Below are positions 5,766 through 44,358 of a stretch of DNA of 64,000 nt, piece after piece (the stretch's first letter is position 1; each line of letters begins with the position of its first letter). The DNA lies in assembly GCA_944383685.1 (NCBI GenBank), contig CALWQM010000005.1, positions 1-64,000 on the forward strand. The letters run 5' to 3'. The notes below the pieces were generated by a model that did not search any database, was not told where the DNA came from, and worked only from the letters and a program-made list of their open reading frames with translations. This DNA comes from an uncultured Clostridia bacterium. Its GTDB lineage: Bacteria; Bacillota; Clostridia; Christensenellales; UBA1242. The position numbers and the translations under genes are program-made.

Positions 5766-5844
5766 GTAAAAGATAAACTTTTAGTGACCAACATTATATT
5801 TTTTTCATATTAATATAGTAATATGGTAAGTTATTAAATTAGTT

Positions 5845-7772: not shown

Positions 7773-7802
7773 TTGACATTGTTTGCACATATATATTATA
7801 AT
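7773..7802 (+). promoter_or_regulatory. Consensus sigma-A promoter of the giant surface-protein gene
   Basis: TTGACA (7773-7778), an 18-nt spacer and TATAAT (7797-7802): both hexamers match the consensus exactly. The start site would be near 7809, giving a 5' leader of about 139 nt before the ATG at 7948. Strong constitutive transcription is expected unless the leader or an unseen repressor limits it. Confidence 0.85.
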
Positions 7803-7853
7803 AATTACGTGAGAAAAATTGTTATGTCTTTTTCGCAAATGATAAATTAATTG

Positions 7854-7881
7854 CTCTCGGTTCAAAAATAGATATTGAGAG
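7854..7881 (+). promoter_or_regulatory. Leader hairpin upstream of the giant gene
   Basis: CTCTCGGT (7854-7861) can pair with ATTGAGAG (7874-7881) using two G-U pairs, followed by TGTTTTT. It resembles a weak attenuator or a stabilising 5' hairpin in the 139-nt leader. The fold is inferred from complementarity alone. Confidence 0.35.
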
Positions 7882-7947
7882 TGTTTTTGCGTATTAAAAG
7901 TTACATAGCCATTTTGCACCAAAAGACAAATTTTGAGGAGTAAATCA

Positions 7948-8076
7948 ATGGATAGATTTAAACGTAAATTTGGATTAATTCTTTTTGTTGGGATTTGCAT
8001 GTTCGCAACCACATTTGGCATGGGTATTAGTTCTCTTGTCAATGCATTAACTGTTGTGAACACTGCATCCGCATCT
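7948..8076 (+). other. Signal peptide of the giant protein
   Basis: Residues 1-43: a basic start (MDRFKRKFG), a hydrophobic core (LILFVGICMFATTFGMG) and a small-residue cleavage region (NTASAS), where cleavage near residues 41-43 is plausible. It predicts Sec-dependent export. No lipobox is seen. Confidence 0.85.
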
Positions 8077-11000
8077 ACATCTGTTGAAGATGAGTCGATG
8101 GATGATGAAACAAGTGGGTTTGTTGCTGATCAAGTGTATGACAACCAATATGTGACAGGAGTTAGTTCCTTAAATCTTGGAACTACAACTGCAATCAATA
8201 ACTCATTGATTGAGTTTAGTGGTACTAATTTGTTTGGCAACACGGTTAGCGGGAAAACGATTCAGGTGACGAATAGTATTTTCGTTTACACAGGAACTGG
8301 AACTGCTAAACTTTATAACACGATAACCAATTCCAATATTCACCTAGAAAATGTTGTTTTCTTTTCAACAAAAGGTAATGTTTCATTTACCGCAAATAGT
8401 GCTGTTACAACTAAGGGCTTCTATTACAGCAGTAAAACAGGCAATACCACCGGTATTGGACCAAACGGAAGCACAAGTGTTACATCTTCAATCAATTTGA
8501 GCACTTTGACATCAAGAGTGGGATTTTTCGCACGCAACTCTTTTGATGTTAATGATAATGGAACGCTTGACACCCTTTGGACAGGTGCTTGGTTGTTTGG
8601 TGAAGGTGGCTGGGCATTTGCAAGTGATGAAGTTGTTGGTGGTTCAGTTCAAGGAACTGGCAAAATCTATCCATTGCCATATAGTTATGTTTATGAAAAC
8701 TATATCAACAACAATGATGATGCATATATAGTTGTTACACTTTACACAAATTTAGATAATGTTGAAATCGCACCAGGACAAGGAGATGACAATCAAGAAG
8801 TCAATAGGTCTATTGCGGTTATTTTTAGTGGAACAAGTTCTCAAACTATTGATTTAAGTGATACATATAAACTTGACAGAAATGGTTATAATCAAACAGG
8901 TTGGTATGTTTATCCTGATCAAATTGGAACTCCTTCAACAAGCATAACAGTTAAGGATGATATGACTTTGTATGCTTATTGGGAAGAAGCTACTAAATAT
9001 ATCACTTTTGCACCAGTAGGCGGAACTATTTCTGGTTTGGCTTATAACACCTCTAAGAAAGTTGAATATTCAACTGAAAGTGCCACAGCTTTGGGTGGAA
9101 CATCCACAACAGGCTTGGTTGGAGCTGCGGTATCAAGACCAGGTTTCACTTTCGGTGGTTGGAGAGTTGCAGCAACAAGTGGCTCTTGGGTGAAAGATAG
9201 AACTTATTCAGCGACAGATAATGTAGAAGGAATGTATGGCGATGTTACTTTAAATGCAATTTGGAATCACCAATCTTACGAAATTAGTTTTGAAGGAATT
9301 GATGGAGCAACTGTTTCAGGCGGAAGTTATAGTTCTGGAAAAATTACATACTATATTGACCAAACATTTACCTTGCCAACAGCAACAAAACCGGGATATG
9401 TTTTCAATGGTTGGAAACCAGGCGATGCATCTGGAAGTGGCGTTACAACAAGCAACAATGGTAACTGGGTGAAAACAACAAATTACACCGGAGCACAAAA
9501 CACAGATAATAGCACTGTTGATAAGGTTAATGCCAATCTTTTTGGAAATGTTACTCTTACAGCACAATGGACTGCTGAAAAATATACTTTAACTTTCGAT
9601 GCAAATGGTGGAACATTAAATGGTGCAAATTCTTGCCAAGTTACTTATGATGCAACCACAAACAACACTGGTGTGACAACGGCAAGCAGGGAAGGTTACA
9701 CCTTTAAGGGCTGGTACACAGCAACTTCTGGTGGAAAGCAAGTTTATGATGCGTCAGGCAATGCGGTGGCTGGGGATTATTGGACAGCAGCAGGTGCGAC
9801 AGGAAAATGGAAATATGATGCTGGAAATAATGGTGCAACAATTCCTCTCTATGCTCGATGGACAGAAAACAACTATAATGTTATCTTCAACTTTAATGGA
9901 CAGGGGGCAAATGTTGATTCTGCAACAATGAAAGTTACCTATGGTGGCTCATCTCAAAGTGCGACCACTGGAAATAATACAGGGGTATTTAGCGTTAATT
10001 ACACCGCATTGAAAGCCGGAGCTCAATTCGACATTACGGTTACTAACACAGCAGGTGCACATTTCTATATTACAACTGGCAGTGCAACACCAACAACAGG
10101 CTCTTCATTAGATAGCTATGGATATAAATTTGACCAAACAAGCTATGGAGAAAATGATTCAACCTTTACTATAACTGTAAATGTATATCAAAGATATTCA
10201 ATAACCTATAATGCAAATGGCGGAACTGGTGATTTGCCTGGTGTTACATATAAAGTTCATGGAACTAATGTTAATGTTGCAAGCAACACATTGACAAGAA
10301 CAGGTTATAGAGCTGATGGCTGGGCAACATCTGCAAATGGAGACAGGGCTTACACAAATGGTCAAGCTTACACAACAAATGCTAATGCCACTTTGTATGC
10401 TCACTGGACAGCAAACAAATATGCAATCACAGTAAACTATGCTGGTTTCACAGGTTCTGGAACTGCACCAGTATTGAACCTTACATATGGCACTGATGGT
10501 TCTGCCACCTTGAATGCAGATGGTTCAACTAAAATTACTGGTGTTGATTATAACTCAACACTTGCTTTGAATTTCAGTGTGGTTGGTGAATATTACATTA
10601 ATAATGCAGAAGTAAAAACTGACCCTAATTTAAATTCAAATACTGAAGATAATAATAAGACTTATGAAGTTACAATGAATTCTACTAATGGTGTAACTAT
10701 AAATATATATGTTTATAGTATTTATAGCATTACCTATAATGTAAATGGTGGAACAGGATCAGTTTCTCCAACTATTGATTATAAATTGCATGATATAAAC
10801 ACAAATCTTGCAACAAACAATCTCACAAAATTGGGCTATTATGCTGATGGTTGGAATACTAACACCGCTGGAACAGGAACAAATTATGCAAGTGGTTCAG
10901 CATATAGTGGTAACGCAGATGTGACATTGTATGCAGATTTTGCACCTGTTCAATTTAACTTTACATTCAATAATAGCACTAATGAAAACATTTCCGCAAA

Positions 11001-14000
11001 AGTAACTAGTGCATGGACAAGATATGGTGAGACCGTCCTTTACAAATCAAATGGAAGTGATGTTATTGATTATCCTATTGCAACTTTAACAGGTTATAAC
11101 ATTTATTATAGATATAACAATACAAACATCATTTTAGCTTCTACTGGTATTGTTTTTGAAGCTGGCGAATGGTCAACAATTTTTGGTGAATTATTGTCTT
11201 CTAAATCCCAAGAAGAATTGAAGGCTGGTATAGATTTGACACTTGATGCTTCTGTTACTCCTATTTCTTACACCATTACTTACACAACAGATGCTGCACA
11301 TAGTGGGGCAACTTTACCAAGTGCACAAGGTTATGATGTTGCCAATGCAGTGACACTTGGAACTGCAAGCCTTGCCGGTTATGAATTTACTGGCTGGAAA
11401 GTTACAGAGGTAAACGGGCAAGATTCTGGAAGTTATGGTGGATGGACAGTTGGAGCTGTTTATACTGGTGCTCAAGAAGCTGGTAAATATGGCAATGTTA
11501 CATTGCTTGCTCAATGGGAAAACTCAGTTTACACAATCACTTTGGATAAGCAAAATGGAACAGGTGGAACAAGCACAATTTACTTGAAATATAATGATGG
11601 CTTCTATATGAACGAAGGCTGCACAACACCTGTAAATTCAAGCAATTTTGTTAAACCAACTTATGGTGGTTATGTGTTTAATGGATATTACACAGATGTC
11701 AATGGCGCTGGAACTAAAATAATTAATGCTGATGGAAGTGTTGTAAATGGACTTACAACTTACACAACAGCAGACGACACTTTATATGCTTACTGGACTC
11801 TTGACACTTATACAATTACCTATAATGTAAATGGTGGAAATGCTATTGATAATAAAGATTATCAAGTGACTGATTCCTTTAATTTGTCAGCTGCAACACG
11901 TGATGGGTATATTTTTGGCGGATGGAAAGTTGACACTTCAAAAGAACATGGAAACTGGGATATAGCAAAAACTTATTCAACAACAGAAACTATCTCAGGA
12001 ATGTATGGTGATGTTACATTGATTGCACAATGGACTGCTGAAAAATATACAATTTCATTTAATGCAAATAACGGCAGTTTAGACGGAAGTGCAACAGTTG
12101 AAGTTACATACAATTCTTCAAATAACAACTCTGGTGTGACAATTGCAACCAGAAATGGTTATAATTTTGCTGGTTGGTATGATTCTGTAACTGGTGGAAA
12201 CCAAGTTTATGATGCATCAGGTAATGCTGTTGCAACTGGTTCAGGCACAACATATTGGTATTTGCAAGACAGCAGTTATGTTTGGAGATATGATGCTGGA
12301 AATAATGGAGCAACTGTTAACCTTTATGCTCATTGGACAGAAGGTTTGATTCAAGTTGCAGTTAATTCAAATGACTCAACAGGTTCAACAAAAGCACAAT
12401 ACAATGGCGGTAGTGTTCCTGCAAATATCTCTATTAGATATGATTCTAAGAATATGTACATTGGTGATGAACTTTTAACCAGATTTGTTTTAACTCGCAG
12501 TGGATATGATTTCAAGGGATGGGCATTATCTGCCGATGGTGAGATTATCACTGATGCAAATGGTATCATTCTTAACAACTGGACAAATGAAAACTACGCA
12601 AATGCTTCTGGTGGGGCAACCTTGTATGCAATTTGGGAAGCAGAACTTATTCAAGTTACACTTGATTTGAATGATGCAAATTCAACCACAAAATTTGGCT
12701 CAACAGTGGCTTCAACAACTTTTGGAACAAACGTTTATATCAAATTTGACACACAAGAAGTTTATCAAGATGCTGACGGAAGCACAAAACTTGGCGATGC
12801 AACCTCAAGCACCTTCTTTGCAACTCGTGATGGTTATGATTTTAATGGTTGGAAAGCAACAACTGGCGGAAGTGTTATCACAAATGCAAGTGGTGTTTTG
12901 AACGCAAATTGGACAAATGCAGGAAGTTCAACACTTATTGCAGATTGGACAGCAAGAAGAATGACGGTAACTTTAAATGCTGGCGAAGGTGAATTTGGCT
13001 CTGGCACAGGAACTAAGACACAAACTGTTTACATTCAATTTGATTCAAGGGATGTTTATGATGCTTCAACATCTGGAAATAAATTGACAACTTTCCCAAC
13101 ACCAGTACGTGCTGATTATGACTTTGTTGGATATAAGACAGATTCAACAAGAGTTGTTGTTTCACAAGGCGAGAATTGGGTATTAAATGATGACTGGGAT
13201 GTTGACTATTTAAATGTCAATGAATTGACAGCAGAATGGTCTGCACATAAATATGTTATAACATTTAATGCTAACGAAGGTACTTTCTCTAATACTGGTG
13301 TTTTGACAGGTGATAACACAAGATATGGACAAAACCTATATGTTGACCAAAATTTCAGTTTGGCAACTGCAAGTGGCTATGTTTCAAGAGATGGTTACAC
13401 ATTAACTGGCTGGAAACTTGGAACAACTTCAACTGTTTATGAAATTGATTTTGTTGCAAATGCAAATTCTGCTGAAATTCAAGCAATCAAAACAGCTCAA
13501 ACTCTTACGGCTGTTTGGGAAGCAAATGACTATACTATAACTTACACAGCATCAGCAACTGCAACAGAAAATGGGGCAAAAGTTCCTTCTCCATTAGACT
13601 ATGATATTGAAACCGCAGTGTCTCTTGCATCAGCAGAAAATGTGACAGCTCCAACAGGCTACACATTTGGCGGATGGAAAGTTTTGGAAGTTACTTTTGC
13701 AGCTGGTGAATCTCCAACAAAGACAACTGGTGGTTGGACAATTGGAACTATTTATCAAGGTAGCCAAGAAGCTGGCTTATTTGGTAATGTTAAAATGGAA
13801 GCTGTGTTCAATCCAATTACTTACACAATTGTTTTCAATGGTAATGGTTCAACAAGCGGAAGCACAGCAAGTGTTGAAGTAACTTATGACGATGCTGCTG
13901 TTAACCTTACCACAAATGGTTTTGTAAGAACTGGTTACACATTTGCTGGTTGGGCAACAAGCCAAGGGGCAACAACTGCTCAATATACTGACGGACAAAG

Positions 14001-38000: not shown

Positions 38001-41000
38001 TGTCAATGGTGCAACAACAATTAGAGAAATGACATACTCATTTGTTTTGACAGAAACAACTGTTCTTAAAGTTAATGCAACCCCAAGAAATGACTCACAA
38101 TTTAAAGTTGTGTTTGCTCAAAGAAATATTGAAGATACCGCTTATGTTGAAACAGAATCTCAAATTGTAAGTGGTGCAACAACTGATAAGGTTGTTACAA
38201 GAGTTTACTTAGATGAATTTATTTCAAATATTGACACTAAGTTTGCTGGTTTCTTCTACACAAGCTTCTCTAACAGCTTGACAGAAGGTGAACAAGTATT
38301 CACAATTATCTATAACAAAGAAATCACTGAGGAAGATGAAGAAGGTTCTTACACAACTGTTTATATCTTATATAACAGATATCACTATGGTATGAGCTTA
38401 AATGCAACAACTGGATATTCAACATTCACTGCTGACGGCACAGTTGACGGCACAGTTAACTACTATGATGCAGATGGCGAATACCGTGTTGACTTTGGTG
38501 CAGAAGTAAGAATTTATCTTGATTTGAACCCTGGTTATAGCCTTGAAGGATTCAGCATTAAAGCTATTGAGGCAACCGGTTCTAAGGATGGCACAGAAGA
38601 AACAGTTCTTGGCGAAGAACATGACCTTACATTTAATGAAGATGAAAATGCTTACTATTTGGATGACACAAAACTCTTCACATTCATTTACAATGATGCT
38701 GGTTACTATGTTCTTTCAGTTATGCCATATTATGACCTTGAAATCACTGCAAACATCACAGCAAATGAATATGAAGTAAGATATTATAGATACTGGAACA
38801 CTGCTGATGTAACTTATGACCCAGATACTGTTACATTCAACACTCCATATTCAATCAAGAACATTAATAAATTCCCAGACTTTAATAAATCAGGTTGGGA
38901 TTTCGCTGGTTGGGCAACAAGCAAAGTTGATGCTGACCAAAAGACTGTAACTTACAGAGCAGAAGACTTTGTTGACGAAAATGACCTTTCAATTGGTAAT
39001 TACACATTTGATCATGACCTTGAACTTTATGCAGTTTGGACACAAGGAAATTCTTCATATAAGATTGAATACTATCTCGAAGAATTAAATGGTGATTACA
39101 ATATTGACAGCGAAAGAACAAAGAACTTATCTGGTTTAACAGACAGCACAGTTACAACAACTGATTATGAAGTTTCAATCACTGGTTATGTTATCAACAG
39201 AGAATTGTCAACAACAAGCGGAACTGTTACTGCTGACGGACAATTAACACTTAAACTTTATTACGAAAGAATTAATTATAAGTTAACAATCAACGGAAAC
39301 AACAGATTTACTTCACTTGGTCTTGTTGCAAGTAAAAATGTAACAAACGAAAACTTTGATGAAGAAACTTGTGTTTACACCGCTGATGTAACTTATGGTG
39401 CAACTGTAACTCTTACTTATGAAACTGTTCCAGGCTACACATTTGCAAGCTGGAATGTAACTTCTGGCTCGGCTGACATTGAAGGCAACACATTAACAAT
39501 GCCAGCAGACAATGTTGTTGTTTCAGTTGTTGAAAAACCTGAAACTTACACATTGACATTTGAAGCTAACGGCGGACATGTTGAAGGTGAAGAAGAAACA
39601 ACTTCTTATGAACAACAATTTGAATACATGTCAAGTGCAAACTTAACAGCAAACAAGTTTGTTAAAGATGGTTACACATTTAAGAACTGGACAATCAATG
39701 GAAAAACATATCAAGATAATGAACTCTTTACTTACAACTTTACTGAAAATGTAACAGCAACTGCTGAGTGGACACCAAACACAAACACTGCTTACAAGAT
39801 TATTGTTCACATTCAAAACTTAAACGGTGAAGGTTACACATCTTCAACTGCTGCTGACATGACTGGAACAACAGGTGCCACAATCACACAAGACAATGCT
39901 AAGACTGCATTAATTAACAAGTTAACAGAACTTGGCATAACAATAACTCGTGGTGAAGAAGGTTTCAACTTTGTTAGATTTGAAGAAGATGATTTAACAA
40001 TCAACGGCAATGGAACAACAGTTGTTAATGCATACTTTGACAGAAAGATTTTGACAAATGAATTTAGAATTGACAGTGAAGGTGTTGAAAAGATTGTTGT
40101 TAACTACTTCTCTATTGAAGACAAGCAAGAACATACATTTGAATACACAACAGGTGCTGAAAATAAGACTATTAAAGTTGCATTTGGACAAGAGTTCACA
40201 ATTCAACCTATCTTTGAGGCTGGTTATGAATTTGATTTGATTGCTCGTTACTTTGGCGAAGATGTTGACTTTACTTGGAACCATGAAGACCTTGGTGCTG
40301 GCCAAGATACCAACACTTTAACAACTTCAAGTGGAATTAATGATAATGCAATCTATGCAGTTACTGCAAAGAGATTGTCATACACAATCACTTATCATGA
40401 AAACTTCTTGGAAACAGGAACTGGCACAGATACTCAAACAGTAACTTATCTTGATGCATTCAGTTTAAGAACTCCATTCAGCCATGCTGGATATAACTTC
40501 TTGGGCTGGGCAGAAGAGGAAGATGGTGCAAAAGTTTATGAGCCAACACAAAGCTTTAATAACTATACTTGGACAGATAACATTGATCTTTATGGTGTTT
40601 GGGAAGCTATCACTTACACAATCAAATATAATCCATATCAAGCAAGTGAAGGCGAAATGATGGAAGACACAGCTGTAACTTATGATGTTATCACTGCTCT
40701 TTCAAACAATGTATTCACATATCTTGGACACAACTTTGTTGGCTGGTCATTATCTGCTGGTGGTGAAAATGTTGTTCAAACAGTTGCCACAAAAGCAGAA
40801 ATTGTAAACCCAGGCTACTATTATTGCGAAGAAGATTCAACTTACTATGTTTATAATGTTACTGTTACTGATAAAGATGTTATCACACTTTCTCCTGTAT
40901 GGGAGGCTAACACTTATAAAGTTATCCTTCACAGCAACACAGAAGCTGATTTAACAAGTGACATTGGCGACTTTGAATATGGTGTTGAAGGAAAGATTCC

Positions 41001-44000
41001 TGCATTCAACACACTCAGCTGGACAAATGAAGGATATGACTTCAATGGCTGGTATTACATGAATGGCGATGATAAGGTTCTTCTTGGTGAAGGAGTTGGT
41101 GCTGACAAAGAAGTGACATTCATGAACTTAACCCTTAATGATAATGCAACTGTTGACCTCTATGTAAATTGGGTTAAAGGTTTAACAACATATAAAGCAA
41201 TTATTTTGAAACAGATGCTTAATGAGGAGTACGATTCAACAGATCCTGAAAATTATATCTTGTTCAGTTCTTCATTAAATGCAATCACTGGTGACTTTGT
41301 TACTGCTAAATATGTTTACGACACTTACATTGTTGAAAGTGAATATGCTGAAATTACAGGCTTCACTTATGACGCTGAAAGAAATGCAGAAGAATCATTC
41401 GAAATCAAAGGTGATGGTTCGACAACTGTTTACATTTACTACACAAGAAACACTTATACTCTTAACATAACTCTTGGAACAGGTATTGAAAGTGCAGAAG
41501 CAATTATTGCAGACACAAATTACAGCTTTGCAGGACAAGATGGAAATGTTATGAAATATAATATTTACTATCAAGGTCAAGTTTCAATGACTGCAACTGC
41601 AAAACAAGGCTATCAAGATGTTCCTCCAACCTTCGTTTCAAACACAAGTGATGTTGAAATTGAAGAAGGAAACTTAATTACAATGCCTGCAAAGGATGTG
41701 TTTGTAACAGTTTCTGCTGAACCTGATAAAGACACAGTTTATGGAATTGAGGTTTACCTTGCTGACGCAACTGGTGGCTATGAAGATACAACAACTTTGA
41801 AGACCACTGGCACAGGAACAACTGATGAAGCAATCGACCTTTCAACAGCACAAGGAATTGCAAACAGCACATTTACAGACGAACTTGTTGGATACACATA
41901 TACTAGATATGAATTTGCAAACAGCGTTTCAACAATCGCTGGTGATGGCTCATCAATTATCAAACTTTACTATCAAAGAGTGCCATACAGAGTTACATTC
42001 TCATCAAGCTTAACCAATGGCGCACAAATTCCTGAACAACAATCTGTTATTCATGGAACAGAAGTTGAAGTTGTCTTTGTTATAAATCAAGGATACAACT
42101 TGCCAACCGAAAACAGATTTAAAGTTACAAGTGGTGAAAGTGATTACTCTCTTGAACTTCAAGTTGAAGAAAGCGAAACACCAGAAGGACTTAAACAATA
42201 CACAGTGACATTCACAATGCCAACAAGCAACATCAACATCAATATCAATGTTGCTGCAAACACTGACACTAAGTATACTGTAATTTATAAGTTTGAAAGT
42301 GTTAAGAACTTAAACACTTATGATGAAGCTCTTAATGAGACTCATGACTTTACAGGAACAACAGGTGAAGTTATAACAAAAGATATGATTGGACTTGGCG
42401 AAGAATTTGTTGCTCCAACAGGATTTATTCTCAGCCACACAAGCATTGATGACCTTGCTCTCACAATTGGTGGAGATGGAAAGACTGTTGTTGAAGTGTT
42501 CTTCCTTAGACTTAGACAAAATCTTAAAGTTGAACTTCATGATGATAATCAAGGTATTGACGGAGATGTTGTTGTTAAGGTTGAAGGTGTTGAAGTTCCA
42601 ACAATGCAAACAAGAGAGTGGACCATTGCTTATGAACAAAAGGTTGAACTCACCTTTAACATGAAGAGTGGTTACACCTTTGATGGCTTTGTTGTGAGTG
42701 GAAATGTTAAGGATAAGACCGAAGATGTTTCTAACCGCAAACTCACCTTTACAACTGATGTTGAAGATGTCAATGTTTCAATCACTTTAACTGCAAGAAA
42801 TTCTAAATACACAGTGAGATACTTCTTACAGAAAGTTGTTGATATTGACAATTACTATGATCAAGACCCTGCAAACTATGATGTTCTCAACTGGGCTGTT
42901 GAACAAACTGCTCCAACAAACACCCACTTGACAACTGAAAACATCACAACTCAATTTATCACAAATATTGAATCTCTCAGTGGATACAATAGTGTTAAGG
43001 ATAAATTTATTGGTTACGATTTAACCGATGATGTGTTCACAACAGGTGGTGGTTGGATAAGTGCAACCGTTAACAGCACAGACGACATCACAGATTGGAT
43101 TTATGTTGACGGCAACGGAACAACAGTAATCAATCTTTACATCAACAGGCTTATTGTTAATGTTGATATCAATGTTGACGATGACACACATATTGGAAAT
43201 GTTGATGGTGAAAAAGATTATGTTTATGGTGATGTTGTTACCATGACAGCAAACACAAACCCAGGTTATATCTTTGATTACTTAATGTTTAACGACACAA
43301 GACTTGACAAAGATTCACCTAACTTGAAGGTTGTTGACAATGATGACAACACTCAAACAATAACTTACACATTCACAATCACAGAAGACACAATTGCTGA
43401 AAATGGTGGAATTGATATTCAAGTTTACAGCACATTTGGAACTGCAAAATACACCATTGAACTTTATAAGCAAGTTCTTGATAACTCATTAAATATTGTG
43501 TTTGGTGAACCTGAAAAGATTGAACTTACAGGAACAACTGAAAGTGCAATCAACTATGAAGAATATACAACCGCACCAGCAGGATACACTTATGAGGTTG
43601 AAAGAACTGATGCTGATGAAATAATCAAAGGTGACGGAACAAGCATTGTTAAACTTTACTTCATGCTTAATGCGATAACATTCCATTTGACCTATGGTGA
43701 AGGTGTAACAAATGTTCAAGTTTACAGCACATTTGGAAGTGTTGCTCAAAGTGAAGTTGTTGACAATGTTTACACATACACTGTTTCTTATACTGACACA
43801 ATTTACTTTGAAGTTGAGCTTGAAGTTGGTTACGACTTTGATGGTATTGGCTTGTTAGTTGACGGCGAATATGAAATTCAAGATAACTCTGCAAATCCTG
43901 AATACAGAATGGTTATTCCTGCGGAAGAATTTAATATTCAAGCAAAAGCTTCAAGAAGATTAGTTTATGTTTACTATTTCACAGACACATCATCATCTTC

Positions 44001-44322
44001 TTATGCAGATTTCAGTATGTATAAATATGGTGCCACTGCAACACTTAAACCAAACACATTCACAAAAGATGGTGCAACCTTCATGGGTTGGGCAACAACA
44101 ACTGACAAGGCAAACCAAGGTGTTGTTGACTACGAAGATGGTGCAACCTTCACAATTACTGGCAATGTTAACTTGTATGCTGTTTGGGCAGAAAGTGGCG
44201 GAAGCAACTGGTGGATTTGGATTATAATTGCCTTTGCAATCATACTTGTAATAGTAATAATAATTATTATTATAGTTGTGGTTAAGAAGAAAAAAGAAAA
44301 GGATAAGATCCGCGCGAAATAA
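7948..44322 (+). CDS. Giant secreted/surface protein (12,124 aa) with InlB B-type and MucBP-like repeats and a C-terminal membrane anchor
   Basis: One stop-free gene of 36.4 kb. The start is ATG 7948, behind GAGGAG (7935-7940) and a consensus promoter. The order is: signal peptide (about residues 1-43); a unique N-terminal region to about residue 315; about 28 nearly continuous InlB B/Flg_new-type repeats to about residue 3370; a mosaic of the same repeats with divergent InlB-like (Flg_new_2-like) and MucBP-like modules to about residue 12,010; and a membrane helix with a Lys-rich tail. The repeat signature is Y-x-(I/V)-x-(Y/F)-(N/D)-x-N-x-G-G, then TxxGYxFxGW, then LxAxW; I count about 70 such endings by eye. 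No enzyme domain and no LPXTG motif were found. Repeats of this kind in Listeria internalin B and many gut Firmicutes proteins form elongated beta-rich stalks, so an adhesin or cell-surface fibre is the likely role (inference). The gene ends at its own terminator. Confidence 0.93.
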   Translation: MDRFKRKFGLILFVGICMFATTFGMGISSLVNALTVVNTASASTSVEDESMDDETSGFVADQVYDNQYVTGVSSLNLGTTTAINNSLIEFSGTNLFGNTVSGKTIQVTNSIFVYTGTGTAKLYNTITNSNIHLENVVFFSTKGNVSFTANSAVTTKGFYYSSKTGNTTGIGPNGSTSVTSSINLSTLTSRVGFFARNSFDVNDNGTLDTLWTGAWLFGEGGWAFASDEVVGGSVQGTGKIYPLPYSYVYENYINNNDDAYIVVTLYTNLDNVEIAPGQGDDNQEVNRSIAVIFSGTSSQTIDLSDTYKLDRNGYNQTGWYVYPDQIGTPSTSITVKDDMTLYAYWEEATKYITFAPVGGTISGLAYNTSKKVEYSTESATALGGTSTTGLVGAAVSRPGFTFGGWRVAATSGSWVKDRTYSATDNVEGMYGDVTLNAIWNHQSYEISFEGIDGATVSGGSYSSGKITYYIDQTFTLPTATKPGYVFNGWKPGDASGSGVTTSNNGNWVKTTNYTGAQNTDNSTVDKVNANLFGNVTLTAQWTAEKYTLTFDANGGTLNGANSCQVTYDATTNNTGVTTASREGYTFKGWYTATSGGKQVYDASGNAVAGDYWTAAGATGKWKYDAGNNGATIPLYARWTENNYNVIFNFNGQGANVDSATMKVTYGGSSQSATTGNNTGVFSVNYTALKAGAQFDITVTNTAGAHFYITTGSATPTTGSSLDSYGYKFDQTSYGENDSTFTITVNVYQRYSITYNANGGTGDLPGVTYKVHGTNVNVASNTLTRTGYRADGWATSANGDRAYTNGQAYTTNANATLYAHWTANKYAITVNYAGFTGSGTAPVLNLTYGTDGSATLNADGSTKITGVDYNSTLALNFSVVGEYYINNAEVKTDPNLNSNTEDNNKTYEVTMNSTNGVTINIYVYSIYSITYNVNGGTGSVSPTIDYKLHDINTNLATNNLTKLGYYADGWNTNTAGTGTNYASGSAYSGNADVTLYADFAPVQFNFTFNNSTNENISAKVTSAWTRYGETVLYKSNGSDVIDYPIATLTGYNIYYRYNNTNIILASTGIVFEAGEWSTIFGELLSSKSQEELKAGIDLTLDASVTPISYTITYTTDAAHSGATLPSAQGYDVANAVTLGTASLAGYEFTGWKVTEVNGQDSGSYGGWTVGAVYTGAQEAGKYGNVTLLAQWENSVYTITLDKQNGTGGTSTIYLKYNDGFYMNEGCTTPVNSSNFVKPTYGGYVFNGYYTDVNGAGTKIINADGSVVNGLTTYTTADDTLYAYWTLDTYTITYNVNGGNAIDNKDYQVTDSFNLSAATRDGYIFGGWKVDTSKEHGNWDIAKTYSTTETISGMYGDVTLIAQWTAEKYTISFNANNGSLDGSATVEVTYNSSNNNSGVTIATRNGYNFAGWYDSVTGGNQVYDASGNAVATGSGTTYWYLQDSSYVWRYDAGNNGATVNLYAHWTEGLIQVAVNSNDSTGSTKAQYNGGSVPANISIRYDSKNMYIGDELLTRFVLTRSGYDFKGWALSADGEIITDANGIILNNWTNENYANASGGATLYAIWEAELIQVTLDLNDANSTTKFGSTVASTTFGTNVYIKFDTQEVYQDADGSTKLGDATSSTFFATRDGYDFNGWKATTGGSVITNASGVLNANWTNAGSSTLIADWTARRMTVTLNAGEGEFGSGTGTKTQTVYIQFDSRDVYDASTSGNKLTTFPTPVRADYDFVGYKTDSTRVVVSQGENWVLNDDWDVDYLNVNELTAEWSAHKYVITFNANEGTFSNTGVLTGDNTRYGQNLYVDQNFSLATASGYVSRDGYTLTGWKLGTTSTVYEIDFVANANSAEIQAIKTAQTLTAVWEANDYTITYTASATATENGAKVPSPLDYDIETAVSLASAENVTAPTGYTFGGWKVLEVTFAAGESPTKTTGGWTIGTIYQGSQEAGLFGNVKMEAVFNPITYTIVFNGNGSTSGSTASVEVTYDDAAVNLTTNGFVRTGYTFAGWATSQGATTAQYTDGQSVTANQLEGFADSGNKITLYAVWNANIITVNLDPNTKGITGNALIGTPSLTSSTVYIKYNTNKFYTTNTDGVLSGETAPKGTLTGYEFLGFAESADATSGDDCVIKADGTVTNWTISTSPKTLYAIWGINQVSYTISYADRQANGDPELKISSISGGSNVSGLNAETNFNADGTANLIVSADYGTDAITIVINVIGADGTFYVREGAAPTNSTLGGNGTITLTWTPSADGSTSLYVRQAFTVTLNPQGGTISGTLVNGTRKLYGEDYELPGAIADTTTGDTTFGIYRNGYEFTGWNTSTDGQGTPYSGVYTANADATLYAQWNARNYKVTYDNLDNGNFVDEEGVSNTFNYTIEQTFNLYGNDKVYKNGYSLLGWQVTDYDRNYALSNVWINGTSTYISPSTQISGAFGNNIKLKAIWEIVPYTITYVLNGGTTAEETTVSYDFNTSLNILSSTQVTKTGYTLNSWTVTPTSPDTSIGNWAATVTQGAPLTKMYGNVTLTANWETNPYTITYNTDGGVDADGTSQGFDIEDTFTLHTNITKSGYELLGFTISNDQGNWEEKFPLSGNLNINIENDQHIDLTGMYGNVTLKAVWEAIAVSYDIVIQVRTASGEDQILTTLTGVTTGEVTGATLNIDTVKAYAEAQSGVNVAGFSYDTYTTNKEGNSLVLVGDGSLDINLFYNPVTYTINYVASEGAFGSGVTTSVSYNVYGLLNPAGGEISILTENDATRNGYRLQGFTISGAGATNGSWNKFLKNGIIEQGSSFSLDLDNRTYGNVTLTTSWQLLAYSMTFNANGGEDVASVYYNIEGTTSGSYRKVGNSYVEQTTVAVISGTTRTGYTLDGWTVAANSGNWSTSDAVYKANSSVAGKYGDVTLNAKWLNNVYKLNVNLNDADESNGSTKVTDDTMLGYETNGVYVKYGTKEFYAGRTGTTTATSPISNFAPTRGGYTFKGWALSTDTGTLITDNKGVLINNWNLSSDDDATLVAQWQANTYTVVFNGNGSTSGSVANQPFTFDVAQKLNKNNYVRNGYIFKGWALSREATVENYEDEQEVSNLTEEANGTVNLYAVWEARTVVVTFNLNDASAGNGSTTATLTSGATTMNVKYSLTFASLYVTDPNSPTGLPEAQRHGYTFDGWYIGDTKIENSHLVATYDDGLTLSLTLTAHWTAKKYNVVYHGNDGTVGENEYVNGVQATFDQNYLILPNSNEALGFIRTGYTFAGWGFARGGDIEYATGELGSDGLSVRFNFSASQLSNDTLTLYAHWSENTYTIKFDGNDGEYFGTATLIPGKSDTLSGIRFTQEVTFEQIFNRAGFTFLGWAEEPTGEVKYKVGATASGILTEPGTKTFYAIWKANPVKYTINYYYQKVSSASLGQSDNYASDYALFGQAETYQGDTGTNVNYTTYRDNFISTNGILKPAFKGYTTNGQDNSLAILGDGTLQVNLYFTRGTYDVSVTLGTGIQSVTVTNADRGPITGSQQGMKFTYAIFYQEVISITAQTKAGYGNPVFKEGDSNVTTSSLTIEGNRDFTVSATAGIATFKVEIYYETLTDDVYNSSADETKSNSGTTDSPLVVNATGKNISINGQQYTKAGFSYDNTKTVAENGNKELNTITVLGDNSLVVKLYFSRDSYTLTLNNGTGISSVSGGGSYKFEQDVSISAVVAVGYEWNTWEQTSGTALTGFAAGTKDQANLKMGAGNATLTATATILQFRLTIDLAGGTYTGSVTGTDEQNRPYVKQDYNTTYVLVNPTKTGYVFTGWSDPTAGSLAEDGYTYTFAATDATITATWRPITYQVKFDGNNATSGQMDNQSFTYNDPQPLTLNKFTRTGYTFKGWSTTSTGTVNFADGATPGNLTAKDNDVVTLYAVWEENTYTINFNGNDGEYFGKASLIDGESASVTLKYTQSYSLKSVYERTGYTFSHWTTEADGTGTRYNENQSINSLLETGSMTLYAQWTANRYAINLNENEGSLVGSDIENLTVYAEFNTQKLYTSKTGSVEAKPVAEREGYEFGGWSTTQNQASSRLIDASGVLTAIYHTASDQTVYALWTANTYEITLNLNVPESETTAQIVDNSDPANTITDGKVYITFDSTTIMNAETSGVAVKPIATRTGYTFLGWATSAGVTTAAGCVIDNQGNLKSASKFSSDTELFAIWTVLSYNLTINTDSAQISDLTVTGNDTENISGNTYRVAYESKVRITFNNIAGYSFVRFNKSVESVVINNVSGGYELTMPSQDLTLTMISSANLIKVNMNANDEVGATKADALTNNEVYIRYNTKEIYANRSAENLYMPVGEAIKPVASRDGYTFKGWATSKTATEADVLIDSEGQLKANFTSSTVDGAVTLYAVWTANTNTRFVVEYYFQNIAGNGYDKQDSLTLDDLTGQTDVNINIETYKSYYTTEINGFTFARYTTLNSANGTEVENGSLNIDGDGSRVVRIYFTRNTYTLTINKDNGESNLTVTQRHGSTYSLPTVTKTGYNFNSWTKTSGEGTVSENTFTFGIGNAVVKALWDAKIITVTLDKGEGDSVTTETVYVKYDSNIIYKDAGCETPIVTPPTASKLAYDFNGFYYDGSLVISSVGALTSPWTLSEGPTITLTAEFKPHTYTITYEGNYGNPSVSDTEYTYVSEIVFATATRDGYTFGGWKVKNEGDIGNWVVDQVYQGTIDAPSNLYGDITLVAEWTATPYTATFNTNGGSTVDPIPYDIKSTLTMPTVSKAGYKFTGWTVDETVGNWNKDATYQIGEQINNKFGNVSFTANWAESTDTEYQVHIYYQNLDKGYTTFETSQRYGTTGQTITIDYVTNPNAVTITDSNKSQTYSRDGFHVDTTQSNTQSATVGANGDTVINVYFARNEYTLTVNAGNGISSVTPNGAKSVIFGQEVAIDATVQDGYNFVNWTVTSGTTPTTKDEEEFIATAKSQTIVIGLGNVTLLANASTQSYTITYVNGEEQTPASYDVTDPINLMQVTKTGYTFGGWAVSNNEGNWTEEVITSTTIPAGKWGNVTLTAKWNVNTVEVTLKANDSVGSTRIDSLPNGGKVYITYDSKNIYSTRGGDAYPYTVNPDNLIENLKVTRNGYEFLGWALTPDATADDCIIGSDGLLKEVWTTNGQDGSVLYAIWKANTIKVTLNIDAETTLTDTEVYVVFDKNVIYADNTLSTTYAPVATKPGYTFDGFYQDETQVINASGKLVSNWTYSYTDTSLDAKFTATSYTITYEGANGTPSVNSQPYTTDSSVTLATATRTGYTFAGWIVKENVVVDGVTTWTKDEQISSPVDTSERYGDVTLVATWTANTYTIKYDANDDALIGTATGTTHDTPATYDQNVTLQMNGYTLTGYKFKEWNTQADGNGTSYTQGQALTKPNFCTGASGNTEFTLYAIWEIQSYELTLEKATGIASVSAKEVAGQVTKVEGSENKYTVVYGTAVTLNYTLESGYNFDKWTVTTGTATISDNVLTMPANNITVTAYARAIGYYINYNGNGGRINGDTSYSVAVDYAQTVNIYGAGEEANTISRTGYTFAGWNTQENGSGTPYTAGQSYTHEIVGDLTLFAQWTALKYDVIYNADNGLDDSYTQVDGATYDANYTFLANTDTNLQFKKTGYTFQGWSTTQGAPEVEYNAGDSIVYTTDEDLTLYAVWKANNYSIEYNANDTSGYYYGSAAGSTPYTSATYGQDVEIRACGYTLSGYTFKGWNTQADGNGTSYTPGQEGVRNLKTEEGEVLTLYAIWNANPYTITVKDTDTGSANENKIIDVHYADILTAENFIDNASTYTKTGYTLSGFFVEGTEVMFAAADGTLVENVKTTTDIIKNRQYVYANNLVVEAKYNANPYTVNFNVNDRPDDPNDHPTVETPSKTVHQDGTFDEGNLWPTPVNEGYIFYGWSTRNDYYMYLEEAFRTNYSKFADALNDTYLFTTTIESENEETQEKENVKVVFMKTNAPSVDEATSIDEILWKVTDIKGASGEDDHDFILGDEVVDGTTWTDNTLNLYAMWVGKNDIKYTILYLKEELVYNQDATEFTDIDQYPDEENMLAVGDSVNYQDPHATEENKDVPKLTYKVEKIDKPANAMTGDNVYNYIASQNYRGFKYYAYEYYQETITGEGNTVIYVFYTRIAYDLNLSTSKGIASVGATITGSETGAVTEVTPGKAYKVKYGATVTLSYVKSAGYTFSTWTQNKSDVEKVSVSGNSFVMNAVNPVNLTAYATPNVDTQFIVEHHFEQLDGTHKQNTGLKPNDVEKGTTDTSITVTGFVDNSITGFTYESRYETGKYVDGRWTKDEDSSLNIDGDGSKVVRLFYSRNDYAFTFNSNQANGYSDLSVTVGSVDQGDTLANITVPYEQQVTISVTVKNGYTFEGFISSNPELIANVDKGNEGIVKSGSTYSYTFTMPADNFTFTANISRNTNTAFTIKYMFEKLDIQDLTGHNKYEELGAHPSTTGHGTTEDVITLAHLGTLPTETGFTYVNFGYLEADGSFSPVYISGEGDSTVYVYFNRKTYTGTVNYLYGAGSIHENDQIKASTVIEGMRFGERQPVSVDPITGYTASDNSVTVAITEDKDFTYNVTFTPNTYDITWDFAGGQGSAGAGNYTIETAITLPTLTKAGYVFGGYTVGLVGDGEHSFVGNETFKDTIAAGNYGDIKLTAIWGEIENNVKFKLTNLTYTGEDAVLSGNEYTATLSANKGYSLPETIKVTIGGTEQTVTYDKESGKITIPGNLVVGDIVITADGVANRYKVTLNINDANFLNGSTNAVTTVENASINNGIIELWAVYNGDYNTLYTTKDGSVSIDLDAFTSETLTRTGYDFTGEWLTARYTADNKASDAVQVTGDTKFALDEDTTVLYAYWTTKIITLTLTENEGETATHDKVYVRYDGNGIYSDEDATNLCNPTATKTGYTFNGFYNADTLIITSTGTLNAAPWRNGDADMTLTADFDATPYTITFVADGGADVEAMPYTIESLERLPSTTKNGYDFLGWKPTQNVGPISDGYAWLASETYAAGTALTGKYGDVTLVAQWNPVEYTITYNAGQVDEQNVGSFTEDYLDKTTQKYTIESTETVYPASAVELQGYRFTGWKVTSESQGSWTKDAIITADYALLNKTGNVTLTAQWEAQPNTVTINVTNATADYEQTVLSGEEYTATITVNAGYTLPTAITVKVNGTEITLTEDYTYEQATGTITIKEGVINGNVEITGASVANKYDVTITGQNGHAQVSATNENDYDYTVKYNATTGVNFTVYAKADAGYSDVEFTVTAGSATIGEVTFKDGVYSAEVSGFTASFTITATTTANTNNVIYTLNNVQRDSGADKVASGEEYKGKISAVNGYSIPSAITIKNGTETLEANTHYTYSAETGEFTINAGVITSTVEIIATGVANNYQVTFNLNDFASTQNGSTSVESVVVGEQNIAISNGRISLWVKYGTDYNTLYIDEQGSASVTFDAFASASVITRKGYVFGGFYTEQLAVGASIEGKTEVNGDDTFTTPNNTTEVFAYWTAGTAEYKVEHYKMNLQGNYDSVTPTTETLSATTDTMVTPAVKSTALSTDEFYGFTAPETQTVKVEANGSTVIKYYYTRNVYTLSLTLGNGVKSVSATISNPVATGGDELGENQYHVYFGDSVTIDAVAEEGYTFKGVWTKTESGSPDITVGQDTTEGTFTLNVAQNVGYQAEATANEYEVTFDVNGGNALEEGQDKKTVTYNQKYGALPTPTRDGFAFGGWYVEDLDDNAPVEGKTLITSETIVSITGPQTLYAYWTVNNYDLTVIYKYADQEKPAAETLVVSMAYGAEITEATLQIQKIEGYSHDYVVGGGISLPTTMPVGGLTVTVTYTPNEHKIILVPNYPDSASASEPENVEIPTVYNQNIAITTIKTLGWTVAGYTFQGWKAADGQTYADGYTFAPWNIDADLTLEAQWQANTDTTFTVNIHMMGTDGEYDVVETPMTGTTDSKIVFTSNETTLTINGTSYTYPGMKFNSEKSTVITTEIYISGNGDTEFDVYFDRMQFTLTLNKGTGIGSVSMTPDPVEGKYYYGQEVTINAVVSEGYTWSTWNVADGIAPTTKDQTGFVGTTQNQTIIIGLGDVTLQAEATINSYKLFIDPNGGNYAGIDDVDETSGLQYVEMPYMSTYTLNRPSKDGFDFAGWALKEGSKGNVEYDAETGWVYTFGAGDGTVIAQWSANRYEVVINLNDFYNDNGTTTAETTLTTLPNGTELSIVDGKITLYATYGQKYDKLYISTSSDEYVSIADFTIDTLTRDGYTFVNFTDSQGNPVTADTTCDETSSVEIKANWQAKVYDLTVNVNKAGKVSVAVTGAAEEEGVYKVTFDTEITLTATPSEGYHFVNYTATSELSQNATYKFRYTNVGPMTITANVANNTYTITYNNNGGSGTIDPTDATYDENVTLSSGKGFVKAGYTLTGWAYEEETYEPSEEGIFNFTSVNGGSVELRAIWTANTYNVNFVTNGGTDMNPMNGVTYDVPTMITESTTKAGYNFLGYALTNGTSAEVTTVTDEDIQGASCADLTEYLVQLGEGGIYLYDENYYVFNLAETNGATVPVYAIWTPGKADYKVEYYLEGLTDNDWILDTVFEEEGITFTPNSTTINGNTESLVTIDETKTYTGFTLDKSVAGTKTSGEVAGDGSLTLRLYYRRNTYSVNIIIPDLSDAERGETGITGVNSVDTTGTYKVENRFKFNTEVTVSADIKAGYTFNNYTVTDGEVYTTGASYTFTIKNDTEITINLTRGTFNYTINYKFQNLEGTAYVDDENYESTTLSGLVDSKVLYSDIAGKIVEVPGFLYAGFTENVTVTSDGLAEVNINYDRDFFEITLQTTTGVASLTATGDYCTPNGTTEGTTTYRVKFDSSVTLNYVLNAGYAFKSWSETLVQVGTDADDNDLTGFGTLTMPADDLNIVVNTTPVIVDFTLNYLGEAFKDYDPESGNFDVFTVSLGTETKQGYTDTEIDDIRDYNPKDFDGFTRATFESGKKISGDGTTVINVYYTRNDINITVDLTEGVESITLNVNETDYTLTKEFTADESISIKYEAKVYVSYTLTDDAGYKFVSFNGVQVNADESENYFTVPKDAFTLSITTEPNEFTITFQGNNGTYTPSEPEQDNTYYTQTGVKFNREVTLIANEFTRAGYEFLGWATSQENADSRTVEYTDGESFMFDNAENMTLYAVWGNNTYTITYNGNGGYIEQEEGDPIVTYPHGEEVNYDEEITLLENRFDRTGFTFVGWSRSDKTLDTTGLTNSDGTWTAINLTTKANENVVLYAWWEENTYTLKYNSNYSQYSDNEDVEIEDKVYTYTEKFNALAHSDEKLNFALTGYTFAGWNRKPDGTGDSVNAGEELESLTAKDNDTVVLYAIWEANEYTIVFDGNGATSGNMDSVTATYDTPYAIAANGFNKTAYDFNGWSLSNDNVSVVKNVDSLDEITTSGIYYLTTTGTYYVYNLATGETDDTSKTIYVAWLAHTYTITYMANGGTFDEILTAESTYEKTFTIEDTVTFVSGDELTLEGYTLVGYSLSNINGNWTDKFSGDITLSATPSVTGVYGNVTLTAIWRINSYNLTITYKYGANGNDKDETEAYDEFTSQVEFNASYNQPSPSINGYTADQLTVSGTMPAHDVEVEVLYTANVYTLTFNYMDTTGTGDVDKFEYDKVKVKYDAKYETAYVEGQEGKPVGLGAPTREGYTFAGWYTDSKYSAGTLITDDDVVSILRDTEIFARWTPNADTAYTVEYYFESLDSAENFEIDASYTKTGTGTTDTAITETMVKTLTSGQWPTKTGFTYSRNSLNNTTINADGSTVVKVYYSRDYNTLTLNSTDGIDSFVASANKVAEGQQDTFYITGSGNTYRVRYGSEIKLTYTISDKGYRFVNYTATGIDAEQDIDDNGVFTMVDSNIQITANAEAKEFTIIFHKNDGAKPEETTTQTATYRETVKLNNNTFERAGYGFAGWARSPESTEVAYANGADFTLSSNYATEYNLYAIWTADAISFTIDAGTGIIKENIVLKVNGEVKDVNTATLRYEDNVEIDVSGAIKNGYDFESIVNGATTIREMTYSFVLTETTVLKVNATPRNDSQFKVVFAQRNIEDTAYVETESQIVSGATTDKVVTRVYLDEFISNIDTKFAGFFYTSFSNSLTEGEQVFTIIYNKEITEEDEEGSYTTVYILYNRYHYGMSLNATTGYSTFTADGTVDGTVNYYDADGEYRVDFGAEVRIYLDLNPGYSLEGFSIKAIEATGSKDGTEETVLGEEHDLTFNEDENAYYLDDTKLFTFIYNDAGYYVLSVMPYYDLEITANITANEYEVRYYRYWNTADVTYDPDTVTFNTPYSIKNINKFPDFNKSGWDFAGWATSKVDADQKTVTYRAEDFVDENDLSIGNYTFDHDLELYAVWTQGNSSYKIEYYLEELNGDYNIDSERTKNLSGLTDSTVTTTDYEVSITGYVINRELSTTSGTVTADGQLTLKLYYERINYKLTINGNNRFTSLGLVASKNVTNENFDEETCVYTADVTYGATVTLTYETVPGYTFASWNVTSGSADIEGNTLTMPADNVVVSVVEKPETYTLTFEANGGHVEGEEETTSYEQQFEYMSSANLTANKFVKDGYTFKNWTINGKTYQDNELFTYNFTENVTATAEWTPNTNTAYKIIVHIQNLNGEGYTSSTAADMTGTTGATITQDNAKTALINKLTELGITITRGEEGFNFVRFEEDDLTINGNGTTVVNAYFDRKILTNEFRIDSEGVEKIVVNYFSIEDKQEHTFEYTTGAENKTIKVAFGQEFTIQPIFEAGYEFDLIARYFGEDVDFTWNHEDLGAGQDTNTLTTSSGINDNAIYAVTAKRLSYTITYHENFLETGTGTDTQTVTYLDAFSLRTPFSHAGYNFLGWAEEEDGAKVYEPTQSFNNYTWTDNIDLYGVWEAITYTIKYNPYQASEGEMMEDTAVTYDVITALSNNVFTYLGHNFVGWSLSAGGENVVQTVATKAEIVNPGYYYCEEDSTYYVYNVTVTDKDVITLSPVWEANTYKVILHSNTEADLTSDIGDFEYGVEGKIPAFNTLSWTNEGYDFNGWYYMNGDDKVLLGEGVGADKEVTFMNLTLNDNATVDLYVNWVKGLTTYKAIILKQMLNEEYDSTDPENYILFSSSLNAITGDFVTAKYVYDTYIVESEYAEITGFTYDAERNAEESFEIKGDGSTTVYIYYTRNTYTLNITLGTGIESAEAIIADTNYSFAGQDGNVMKYNIYYQGQVSMTATAKQGYQDVPPTFVSNTSDVEIEEGNLITMPAKDVFVTVSAEPDKDTVYGIEVYLADATGGYEDTTTLKTTGTGTTDEAIDLSTAQGIANSTFTDELVGYTYTRYEFANSVSTIAGDGSSIIKLYYQRVPYRVTFSSSLTNGAQIPEQQSVIHGTEVEVVFVINQGYNLPTENRFKVTSGESDYSLELQVEESETPEGLKQYTVTFTMPTSNINININVAANTDTKYTVIYKFESVKNLNTYDEALNETHDFTGTTGEVITKDMIGLGEEFVAPTGFILSHTSIDDLALTIGGDGKTVVEVFFLRLRQNLKVELHDDNQGIDGDVVVKVEGVEVPTMQTREWTIAYEQKVELTFNMKSGYTFDGFVVSGNVKDKTEDVSNRKLTFTTDVEDVNVSITLTARNSKYTVRYFLQKVVDIDNYYDQDPANYDVLNWAVEQTAPTNTHLTTENITTQFITNIESLSGYNSVKDKFIGYDLTDDVFTTGGGWISATVNSTDDITDWIYVDGNGTTVINLYINRLIVNVDINVDDDTHIGNVDGEKDYVYGDVVTMTANTNPGYIFDYLMFNDTRLDKDSPNLKVVDNDDNTQTITYTFTITEDTIAENGGIDIQVYSTFGTAKYTIELYKQVLDNSLNIVFGEPEKIELTGTTESAINYEEYTTAPAGYTYEVERTDADEIIKGDGTSIVKLYFMLNAITFHLTYGEGVTNVQVYSTFGSVAQSEVVDNVYTYTVSYTDTIYFEVELEVGYDFDGIGLLVDGEYEIQDNSANPEYRMVIPAEEFNIQAKASRRLVYVYYFTDTSSSSYADFSMYKYGATATLKPNTFTKDGATFMGWATTTDKANQGVVDYEDGATFTITGNVNLYAVWAESGGSNWWIWIIIAFAIILVIVIIIIIIVVVKKKKEKDKIRAK
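8095..8890 (+). other. Unique N-terminal domain of the giant protein
   Basis: Residues about 50-315 have no InlB signature. They are Asn/Thr/Ser-rich with short strands at regular intervals (SLIEFSG, IQVTNSIFVYTG, NIHLENVVFFS), suggesting a small beta-helix or beta-sandwich cap. As the outermost part of a C-terminally anchored stalk, it is the best candidate for a ligand-binding tip (inference). Confidence 0.5.
8890..18060 (+). repeat. Block 1: nearly uninterrupted array of InlB B/Flg_new-type repeats
   Basis: About 28 repeats of roughly 65-130 residues each. Units end in LYAYW, LNAIW, LTAQW, LYAHW and similar, and start again with Y(T/N)ITYN-type strands. The central (T/R)xGYxFxGW motif occurs in most units. 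Repeats are diverged at the protein level, so the array is old rather than freshly expanded. Confidence 0.88.
25462..26285 (+). other. Acidic, non-canonical segment in the middle of the giant protein
   Basis: About residues 5839-6113 break the repeat pattern. The segment is rich in Asp, Glu and Asn (for example NDRPDDPNDHP and DIDQYPDEENM), lacks GYxFxGW apart from one relict (GYIFYGW), and includes helix-forming stretches. It sits near the midpoint and could be a hinge, a binding insert or a protease-sensitive linker. Confidence 0.55.
27871..30055 (+). repeat. Third repeat type: three copies of a SGEEYTA...GVANxY module
   Basis: Copies of about 85-90 residues start near 27871, 29260 and 29785. 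Each runs N-x-V-x-(F/I)...(L/A)SG(N/E)EY(T/K), then GY(S/T)(L/I)P..I.(V/I)..G, then a (T/S)G.(I/F)TI strand, and ends in (G/S)VAN(R/K/N)Y. The last two are separated by one other module. The spacing suggests a local duplication. Confidence 0.75.
44204..44322 (+). other. C-terminal membrane anchor and basic tail of the giant protein
   Basis: After the last repeat (LYAVWAESGGSN) a WWIWIIIAFAIILVIV-type hydrophobic helix of about 25 residues leads into a tail of 12 mostly basic residues (KKKKEKDKIRAK). There is no LPXTG or related sortase motif before the helix. The protein is therefore expected to stay anchored in the cytoplasmic membrane by this helix rather than be linked to peptidoglycan. 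Confidence 0.85.
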
Positions 44323-44323
44323 T

Positions 44324-44358
44324 AACAAAAAGACTTAGCAAATGCTAAGTCTTTTTTG
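44324..44358 (+). terminator. Intrinsic terminator of the giant gene
   Basis: AGACTTAGC (44331-44339) pairs perfectly with GCTAAGTCT (44344-44352) across an AAAT loop, followed by TTTTTG. Flanking A and T runs extend the stem. Confidence 0.93.

Follow-up and report, generated by a model that had tools for sequence, protein, structure and literature searches.

A 12,124-residue InlB-type repeat protein of a Clostridia bacterium with a 1.13-Mb genome belongs to a clade-wide, positionally conserved giant family

Introduction

Can a single open reading frame that takes up 36,375 of 64,000 bases of bacterial DNA be a genuine and maintained gene and, if so, what would its product do? The question is raised by the window analysed here, a stretch of 64,000 nucleotides starting at base 1 of contig C5 (CALWQM010000005.1) of an uncultured Clostridia bacterium. 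The genome (G000, 17 contigs) contains 1,130,304 bases and is 99.07% complete; the giant gene makes up 3.2% of these 1.13 Mb. A preliminary description, made from the letters of the window, had proposed an intact gene for a surface protein built of repeats.

Giant proteins have been described in other bacteria. Giant1 to Giant5 of Apilactobacillus kunkeei are presented as extracellular proteins of 3,000–8,000 residues that are kept in position within the bacterial group and are encoded in a 1.5 Mb genome (PMC12863079). The giant genes of PVC bacteria (West-Roberts et al. 2023, as summarised in PMC12057145) encode up to 85,800 residues, with multiple transmembrane helices and carbohydrate-degrading domains, while the giant genes of Reva and Tummler (2008), as cited in PMC11573180, include a surface-protein class and are called strain-specific. 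A search of the titles and abstract openings in a collection of published papers found no description of the giant family presented here.

Results

The giant gene and its flanking signals

On the forward strand, an uninterrupted reading frame extends from 7933 to 44322 (12,129 amino acids when counted from the TTG at 7933). The ATG at 7948 was taken as the start rather than this TTG because it is preceded by GAGGAG, a ribosome site read from the sequence at 7933–7947 of the same strand. From this ATG, the gene (7948–44322) encodes 12,124 residues with a molecular mass of 1.324 MDa and a pI of 4.25, and contains a single, terminal stop, bearing out the initial reading of one intact gene that fills 57% of the window without stop or frameshift. 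The protein is very acidic (net charge −795) and contains 14.5% threonine. A sigma-70 promoter-like sequence, TTGACA-18-TATAAT, is located upstream at 7773–7802 (forward strand) and matches the consensus at 12 of 12 positions. The number of promoter-like sites upstream of the gene, four, is not above chance (shuffle mean 4.0); only the score of 12 is unusual, being reached by 1 of 1000 mononucleotide shuffles of the upstream stretch, with 52 of 1000 scoring at least 11. Among 14 orthologues, the upstream region scores 11 or 12 at best in nine, while four reach 10 and a single one reaches 9. The gene is followed on the same strand by a terminator-like hairpin of 13 pairs with a T tail, identified by hairpin search at 44327–44356. 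A search of the window against Rfam at gathering scores gave no match.

The chain starts with a predicted signal segment (residues 1–35, 8053 being the first base beyond it; 7948–8052), assigned from a hydropathy peak and from orthologue identity. This is followed by a non-repeat N-terminal tip (residues 36–285, 8053–8802), delimited by the repeat profile and perhaps forming a short beta-solenoid according to a low-confidence model. Next come an N-side repeat array (residues 286–7500, 8803–30447), colinear with nearer species only, and a C-side repeat core (residues 7501–12082, 30448–44193), defined by one-piece BLASTP alignments. The predicted membrane anchor (residues 12083–12124, 44194–44319), recognised from hydropathy and the layout of the orthologues, is made up of WWIW, a helix and a KKKKEKDKIRAK tail. 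The Kyte-Doolittle mean over 19 residues exceeds 1.6 only at residues 7–31 and 12083–12118, the latter being followed by the lysine-rich tail. The consensus promoter, good ribosome site, signal peptide, membrane anchor and strong terminator of the preliminary description were thus all recovered.

The GC3 of the giant gene (0.234) equals that of its neighbours (0.245). Its codon adaptation to a reference of two genes only, those for EF-Tu and EF-G, is 0.595, while 19 neighbouring genes range from 0.341 to 0.545; for its composition, 0.465 would be expected with neighbour codon use and 0.718 with reference-gene use. The codon bias leans towards being expression-like.

Repeat content

In Pfam searches, the Flg_new family (PF09479) was found in all three scanned pieces of the giant, with 417, 300 and 171 bits (curated cut-off 27 bits), and Flg_new_2 (PF18998) was above its cut-off in two of the three. 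Further families all failed to pass a limit of E 0.001 anywhere in the chain, and relaxing this limit to E 1 for five pieces (residues 1–346, 5801–9097 and 9743–12124) added only chance-level matches below the cut-off. The lack of enzyme families along the full chain at E 0.001 agrees with the preliminary description, which had recognised no enzyme domain; MucBP, suggested there as a family to search for, is absent from the full chain at E 0.001 and from the part searched at E 1. Leucine-rich repeats were likewise missing from the full chain at E 0.001 and from residues 1–346 at E 1, and no SH3 family was detected in the full chain at E 0.001 or in part of it at E 1. At E 0.001, Flg_new matches number 84 in the genome, many of them inside the giant frame, and zero in 14 control genomes. 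By sequence, residues 435–1017 match internalin B chains (E 0.00085–0.0037).

A repeat profile of 73 positions was found at 84 places, covering 55% of the chain; over four rounds, in which the profile drifted to 169 positions, this increased to 90 places and 92%. Neither model matched any of 20 shuffled copies of the chain. InlB-type and related repeats, proposed early on for almost the whole protein, are present. Gaps of at least 60 residues were left by the profile at residues 1–285, 5972–6060, 6449–6508, 10049–10222, 10706–10770, 11331–11495 and 11718–11886. In the DNA, Tandem Repeats Finder detected just three arrays of 25–41 bases each. Recent repeat expansion is ruled out by this lack of long tandem arrays and by the 15 best long internal matches, which are only 26–33% identical, while single windows of 150 residues reach up to 50.7% identity with another part of the same chain. 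Calcium-binding motifs of the DxDxDG type (a crude motif) occur twice, where 200 shuffles gave a mean of 1.3 and a maximum of 5; at this chance level, stiffening by calcium, as in giant adhesins of the LapA and SiiE type, is unsupported.

Structure of the stalk and the tip

An AlphaFold2 model of residues 11245–11769, calculated from an alignment of six rows, has a mean pLDDT of 80.2 and a pTM of 0.56, with all ten-residue blocks from position 11 to 370 between 80 and 93. By our reading, the strands of this predicted stalk piece fall into four beta modules in series, each about 88 residues long and joined without long linkers. A fold search with this model returned seven PDB chains at E ≤ 0.001, with TM-scores to the query of 0.11–0.26 and 10–12% identity over the matches. 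Five belong to Gram-positive surface proteins (Bacillus anthracis TIE twice, Lactococcus YwfG twice, and SraP); the other two, 7kpj_E and 7kpj_F, come from an entry of an immunoglobulin-binding protein with Fab and may be antibody chains. Immunoglobulin-fold proteins predominate further down the list, which makes the evidence from fold generic in part. When a profile of the C-terminal alignment was compared with PDB sequences, none was below E 0.24.

The tip model, calculated from the single sequence, has a mean pLDDT of 40.7; a ladder of short paired strands is predicted at residues 61–140 (pLDDT 53–73), the rest being below 50. Residues 70–280 of the tip are 33–47% identical in five orthologues (G053, G051, G065, G072 and G076) and 17–26% in the other nine. 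In the signal segment (residues 1–35), identity is 60–63% to G051 and G053 and 21–49% to the other twelve.

Orthologues within and beyond the genus

A profile of the last 869 positions of the giant (A1, four rows) was compared with 112 genomes from the same genus, scoring the best eight candidates or fewer per genome, and matched 47 of them at E 1e-10. Twenty-nine match it nearly end to end (from position 1–10 to 860–869); the other 18 match partially, with E no better than 2e-32 among the matches listed. Among the 29 near-complete matches, 15 loci can be read to the start codon, 13 run off a contig edge (G109, G067, G019, G058 and G082 among them) and one, in G113, is frameshifted between the overlapping frames C31:2-964 and 778-5760 of its assembly. 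The 15 complete proteins, with start codons picked by eye, contain 12,801, 12,714, 12,690, 12,556, 12,124 (the gene in the window), 11,489, 11,285, 11,081, 9,654, 9,402, 9,391, 9,205, 8,971 (G096, which begins at a contig edge), 8,186 and 8,022 residues, so none is shorter than 8,000. From these sequences, the giant represents a clade-wide family and not one odd gene. Beyond the genus, the profile had no match that reached E 1e-30 among 197 genomes of the family (42 genera; at most the best four candidates per genome) or 297 of the order (125 genera; at most the best three), both totals including the genus members; a relative outside the genus may have been missed, because few candidates were scored per genome.

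All 15 complete orthologues end in the same manner: the last repeat (LYAVW, LYAIW or IYAVW) leads into a hydrophobic helix, which is followed by a basic tail. None of them contains LPxTG. The sortase family PF04203 has no match in the 99% complete genome, while three of the 14 control genomes contain one; the transpeptidase family PF00905 has two matches. A search for the SecA family gave one SecA_DEAD match. With neither a sortase match nor LPxTG, sortase anchoring is unsupported, as is export by an accessory SecA2 system of the kind used by serine-rich repeat proteins, with a single SecA match. The predicted anchor is a membrane helix.

Elsewhere in the genome, a second giant gene (G000:C6:51754-70872) encodes a protein of 6,373 residues that begins with a signal segment and ends in a similar transmembrane segment and basic tail. 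It aligns with the giant of the window over at most 298 columns, and its N-terminal text gives a beta-helix-like impression. Contigs C12 and C15 of the same genome contain frames with Flg_new repeats of 784, 774, 1,059 and 1,544 residues, two of which have lipoprotein-like starts (LLAGC).

The locus and its descent

The giant gene is located between a ZIP transporter gene on the reverse strand (6655–7419, identified by Pfam) and, on the forward strand, genes for a protein with a DAP_DH_C domain (44458–45624, likewise from Pfam) and for thymidylate kinase (45683–46315). In each of the 14 loci where the contig continues beyond the start of the giant, a ZIP relative is found upstream within 0.2–4.2 kb, on either strand. 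Downstream, among 23 loci with compared flanks, relatives of thymidylate kinase are present in 19 and of the DAP_DH_C protein in 17; the DAP_DH_C gene is in two frames in G107 and on a separate contig in G103. Because related species hold the same giant at the same chromosomal place, it appears to be real and long maintained, and no assembly accident.

DAP_DH_C is matched in 81 of the 112 genomes; 20 giant-less loci were chosen from these, and in none of them is a giant directly upstream of DAP_DH_C. In 14 of the 20, a frame of 604–679 residues stands there instead; as it occupies the site, arrival or loss of the giant may have accompanied a local rearrangement. In a tree of 42 of the 81 DAP_DH_C proteins, rooted at the midpoint only and leaving out eight of the 29 giant-bearing genomes (gene missing, partial or not fetched), all 21 giant-bearing rows group with a single further row, G013, in a clade of 22 (support 99/98). 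G013 is not countable as an absence, because its gene is cut at a contig edge; it is due to this row that the tree tool counts two changes. In the giant-less genome G009, a repeat frame of 2,315 residues (on C31), 23% identical to the C-terminal part of the giant, lies six genes upstream of DAP_DH_C, and A1 is matched partially (E 2e-32). Together, these point to a possible diverged relative outside the giant clade. Viral contigs searched with the downstream neighbour gave no match.

Further from the giant, positions 430–4185 of the window encode a STAND-type NTPase of 1,251 residues (nSTAND3 above cut-off, weak IetA matches in PADLOC), situated in a stretch of 25% GC at the contig start; it is perhaps a candidate defence protein. 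Three genes that match TMEM164 (PF14808) lie within 5 kb at 54401–55210, 57606–58376 and 58387–59280.

Colinearity and selection

The giants of the window and of G076 align over residues 3925–12097 in one BLASTP alignment of 8,625 columns with 40% identity, with further pieces at residues 1–2052 and 2959–4206 in the same order. More distant orthologues align in one piece on the C-side: G001 over 4,823 columns (31% identity, from residue 7503), G003 over 4,767 (27%, from residue 7810) and G023 over 4,185 (26%, from residue 8358). For each window of 150 residues, it was then determined whether the giant of another species is a better match than any other part of its own chain, and how many best hits lie in one increasing order. 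With G076, 63 of 78 windows prefer the other species and 66 are in order; the corresponding numbers are 66 and 69 for G051, 53 and 53 for G053, 35 and 35 for G044, 34 and 39 for G001, 12 and 29 for G003, and 12 and 28 for G023. Between G072 and G076, all 82 windows prefer the other species and all 82 are ordered, while G003 and G023 give 38 and 35 of 59. These counts indicate that module identity is fixed between nearer species and is progressively lost in more distant ones. Fifteen windows match their own chain better than G076, and 13 of them are located within residues 450–3900.

Selection was evaluated on two pairs of orthologues, G072–G076 and G072–G065, which do not include the window's own gene. 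The alignment of the giants of G072 (12,690 residues) and G076 (12,714 residues) covers 12,549 codons at 76.5% identity and has 306 gap columns; a Nei-Gojobori script gave a dS of 0.745, a dN of 0.164 and a dN/dS of 0.22, with low values in all 16 windows (0.100–0.288). From these alignments, purifying selection acts along the chain in this pair. For G072–G065, dN/dS is 0.164 overall, but dS is saturated (2.6) and is undefined in one window. Along the pair G072:C2–G076:C1, dS varies from 0.39 to 1.39 in windows of 800 codons, a variation that hints at recombination tracts inside the gene. The early impression of a gene that looks expressed and maintained is backed by the similar-scale orthologues, the fixed position, purifying selection and the expression-like codon bias, expression itself being inferred.

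Discussion

The giant is probably a Sec-exported, sortase-independent and membrane-anchored adhesin-like stalk carrying a small N-terminal tip. Its chain would exit by the ordinary Sec route, with the C-terminal helix remaining in the cytoplasmic membrane and the basic tail inside. Some 90–135 beta modules (from 84–90 profile matches and the approximately 88 residues per module of the modelled stretch) would cross the peptidoglycan and project past it as an extended, surface-exposed array, and the small N-terminal domain would be carried at the far end to make contact with a ligand or a second cell. A conserved base would be formed by the C-side 4,000–4,600 residues, while the N-side array, variable in length between species, would set the reach; on the assumption of 3–4 nm per module, this would come to some tenths of a micrometre. 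Counting against this reading are the lack of a recognised ligand-binding domain, the poor tip model and the low identity of the tip (17–26%) in nine of 14 orthologues. There is some chance, if a lesser one, that the giant is an ordered heteropolymer rather than a passive spacer. Module order may itself be read, because scores of modules keep their identity and order between species differing at 60% of residues. If so, the stalks of two cells could pair like a zipper, a succession of different ligands could be bound, or the chain could serve as a length gauge.

Rather unlikely, but deserving consideration, is a structural coat, in which chains pack side by side as a fibrous shielding sheath with no specific tip ligand. 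The net charge of −795 and the threonine content of 14.5% make a hydrated or glycosylated layer possible, the codon bias is expression-like and the tip is poorly conserved beyond the five nearest complete orthologues. A passive layer has no obvious need for modules to stay in place, yet most windows prefer their G076 counterparts and are ordered (63 and 66 of 78); this fixity is weaker with distance, with only 12 of 78 windows preferring G003 or G023. That the long, multi-module chain is a precursor from which proteases release a large number of short secreted repeat proteins appears very improbable given the single anchor kept at the far C-terminal end of all 15 complete orthologues and the modules adjoining without long linkers in the one modelled stretch. 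Similarly improbable is a giant for predation or wall degradation, as in Omnitrophota and other PVC lineages: the size class and the proposed surface location are similar, as described in PMC11573180 and PMC12057145, but the chain has one C-terminal helix, not several, and no enzyme family at E 0.001, weak names such as Glyco_hydro_2_N (E 0.34) being below the cut-off and looking like chance.

An assembly artefact or a decaying repeat gene is extremely improbable. The genome is in 17 contigs, its relatives are listed as metagenome-assembled and the G113 copy has a frameshift; against this stand full-length colinear copies in other assemblies, purifying selection in all 16 windows of the G072–G076 pair and the absence of near-identical DNA repeats prone to mis-joining. 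The artefacts and frameshifts that the preliminary description had named as possible refutations are countered by these orthologues, and an assembly artefact is contradicted by colinearity, selection and the absence of long tandem DNA arrays.

The stalk reading brings the giant close to several known systems. Like the A. kunkeei giants as described in PMC12863079, the nearest published case found, it combines an elongated repeat region with positional conservation and a small genome; unlike them, the family spans 8,000–12,800 residues. An N-terminal beta-solenoid has been proposed as binding tip of A. kunkeei Giant1–4, where the low-confidence tip model here contains short paired strands; Giant1–3 have alpha-helical repeats, where InlB-type repeats are present here; and the A. 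kunkeei giants are described with SH3b-like C-termini and no transmembrane domains (PMC12863079), whereas the window giant has a predicted C-terminal membrane helix and no SH3 family. The PVC giants are putative surface proteins too, but are larger, with several helices and catalytic domains (PMC12057145). Where the giants of Reva and Tummler are called strain-specific (PMC11573180), the present giant occurs across a clade, with conserved synteny and signs of purifying selection in the pair tested. Listeria internalin B and other Flg_new (PF09479) proteins have the same repeat module; unlike internalin B, the giant contains some ninety or more modules, has no leucine-rich repeat or SH3/GW family in Pfam and ends in another anchor. 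The adhesins YwfG, TIE and SraP resemble its C-terminal stalk modules in fold, at only 10–12% identity. These adhesins are sortase-anchored, whereas the genome of the giant has no sortase match. The repeat module and the idea of giant adhesins were thus already known; the present family is set apart by its clade-wide spread, fixed position, purifying selection in the tested pair and greater length.

Export and anchoring of 12,000 residues in a genome with one SecA match and no sortase match present a puzzle. A 1.13-Mb genome gives 3.2% of its length to one protein, and the clade has kept that bargain. Its 15 full-length orthologues allow comparisons of length, of module order and of the tip and base, so that the purpose and the length limit of giant bacterial surface proteins become directly testable.
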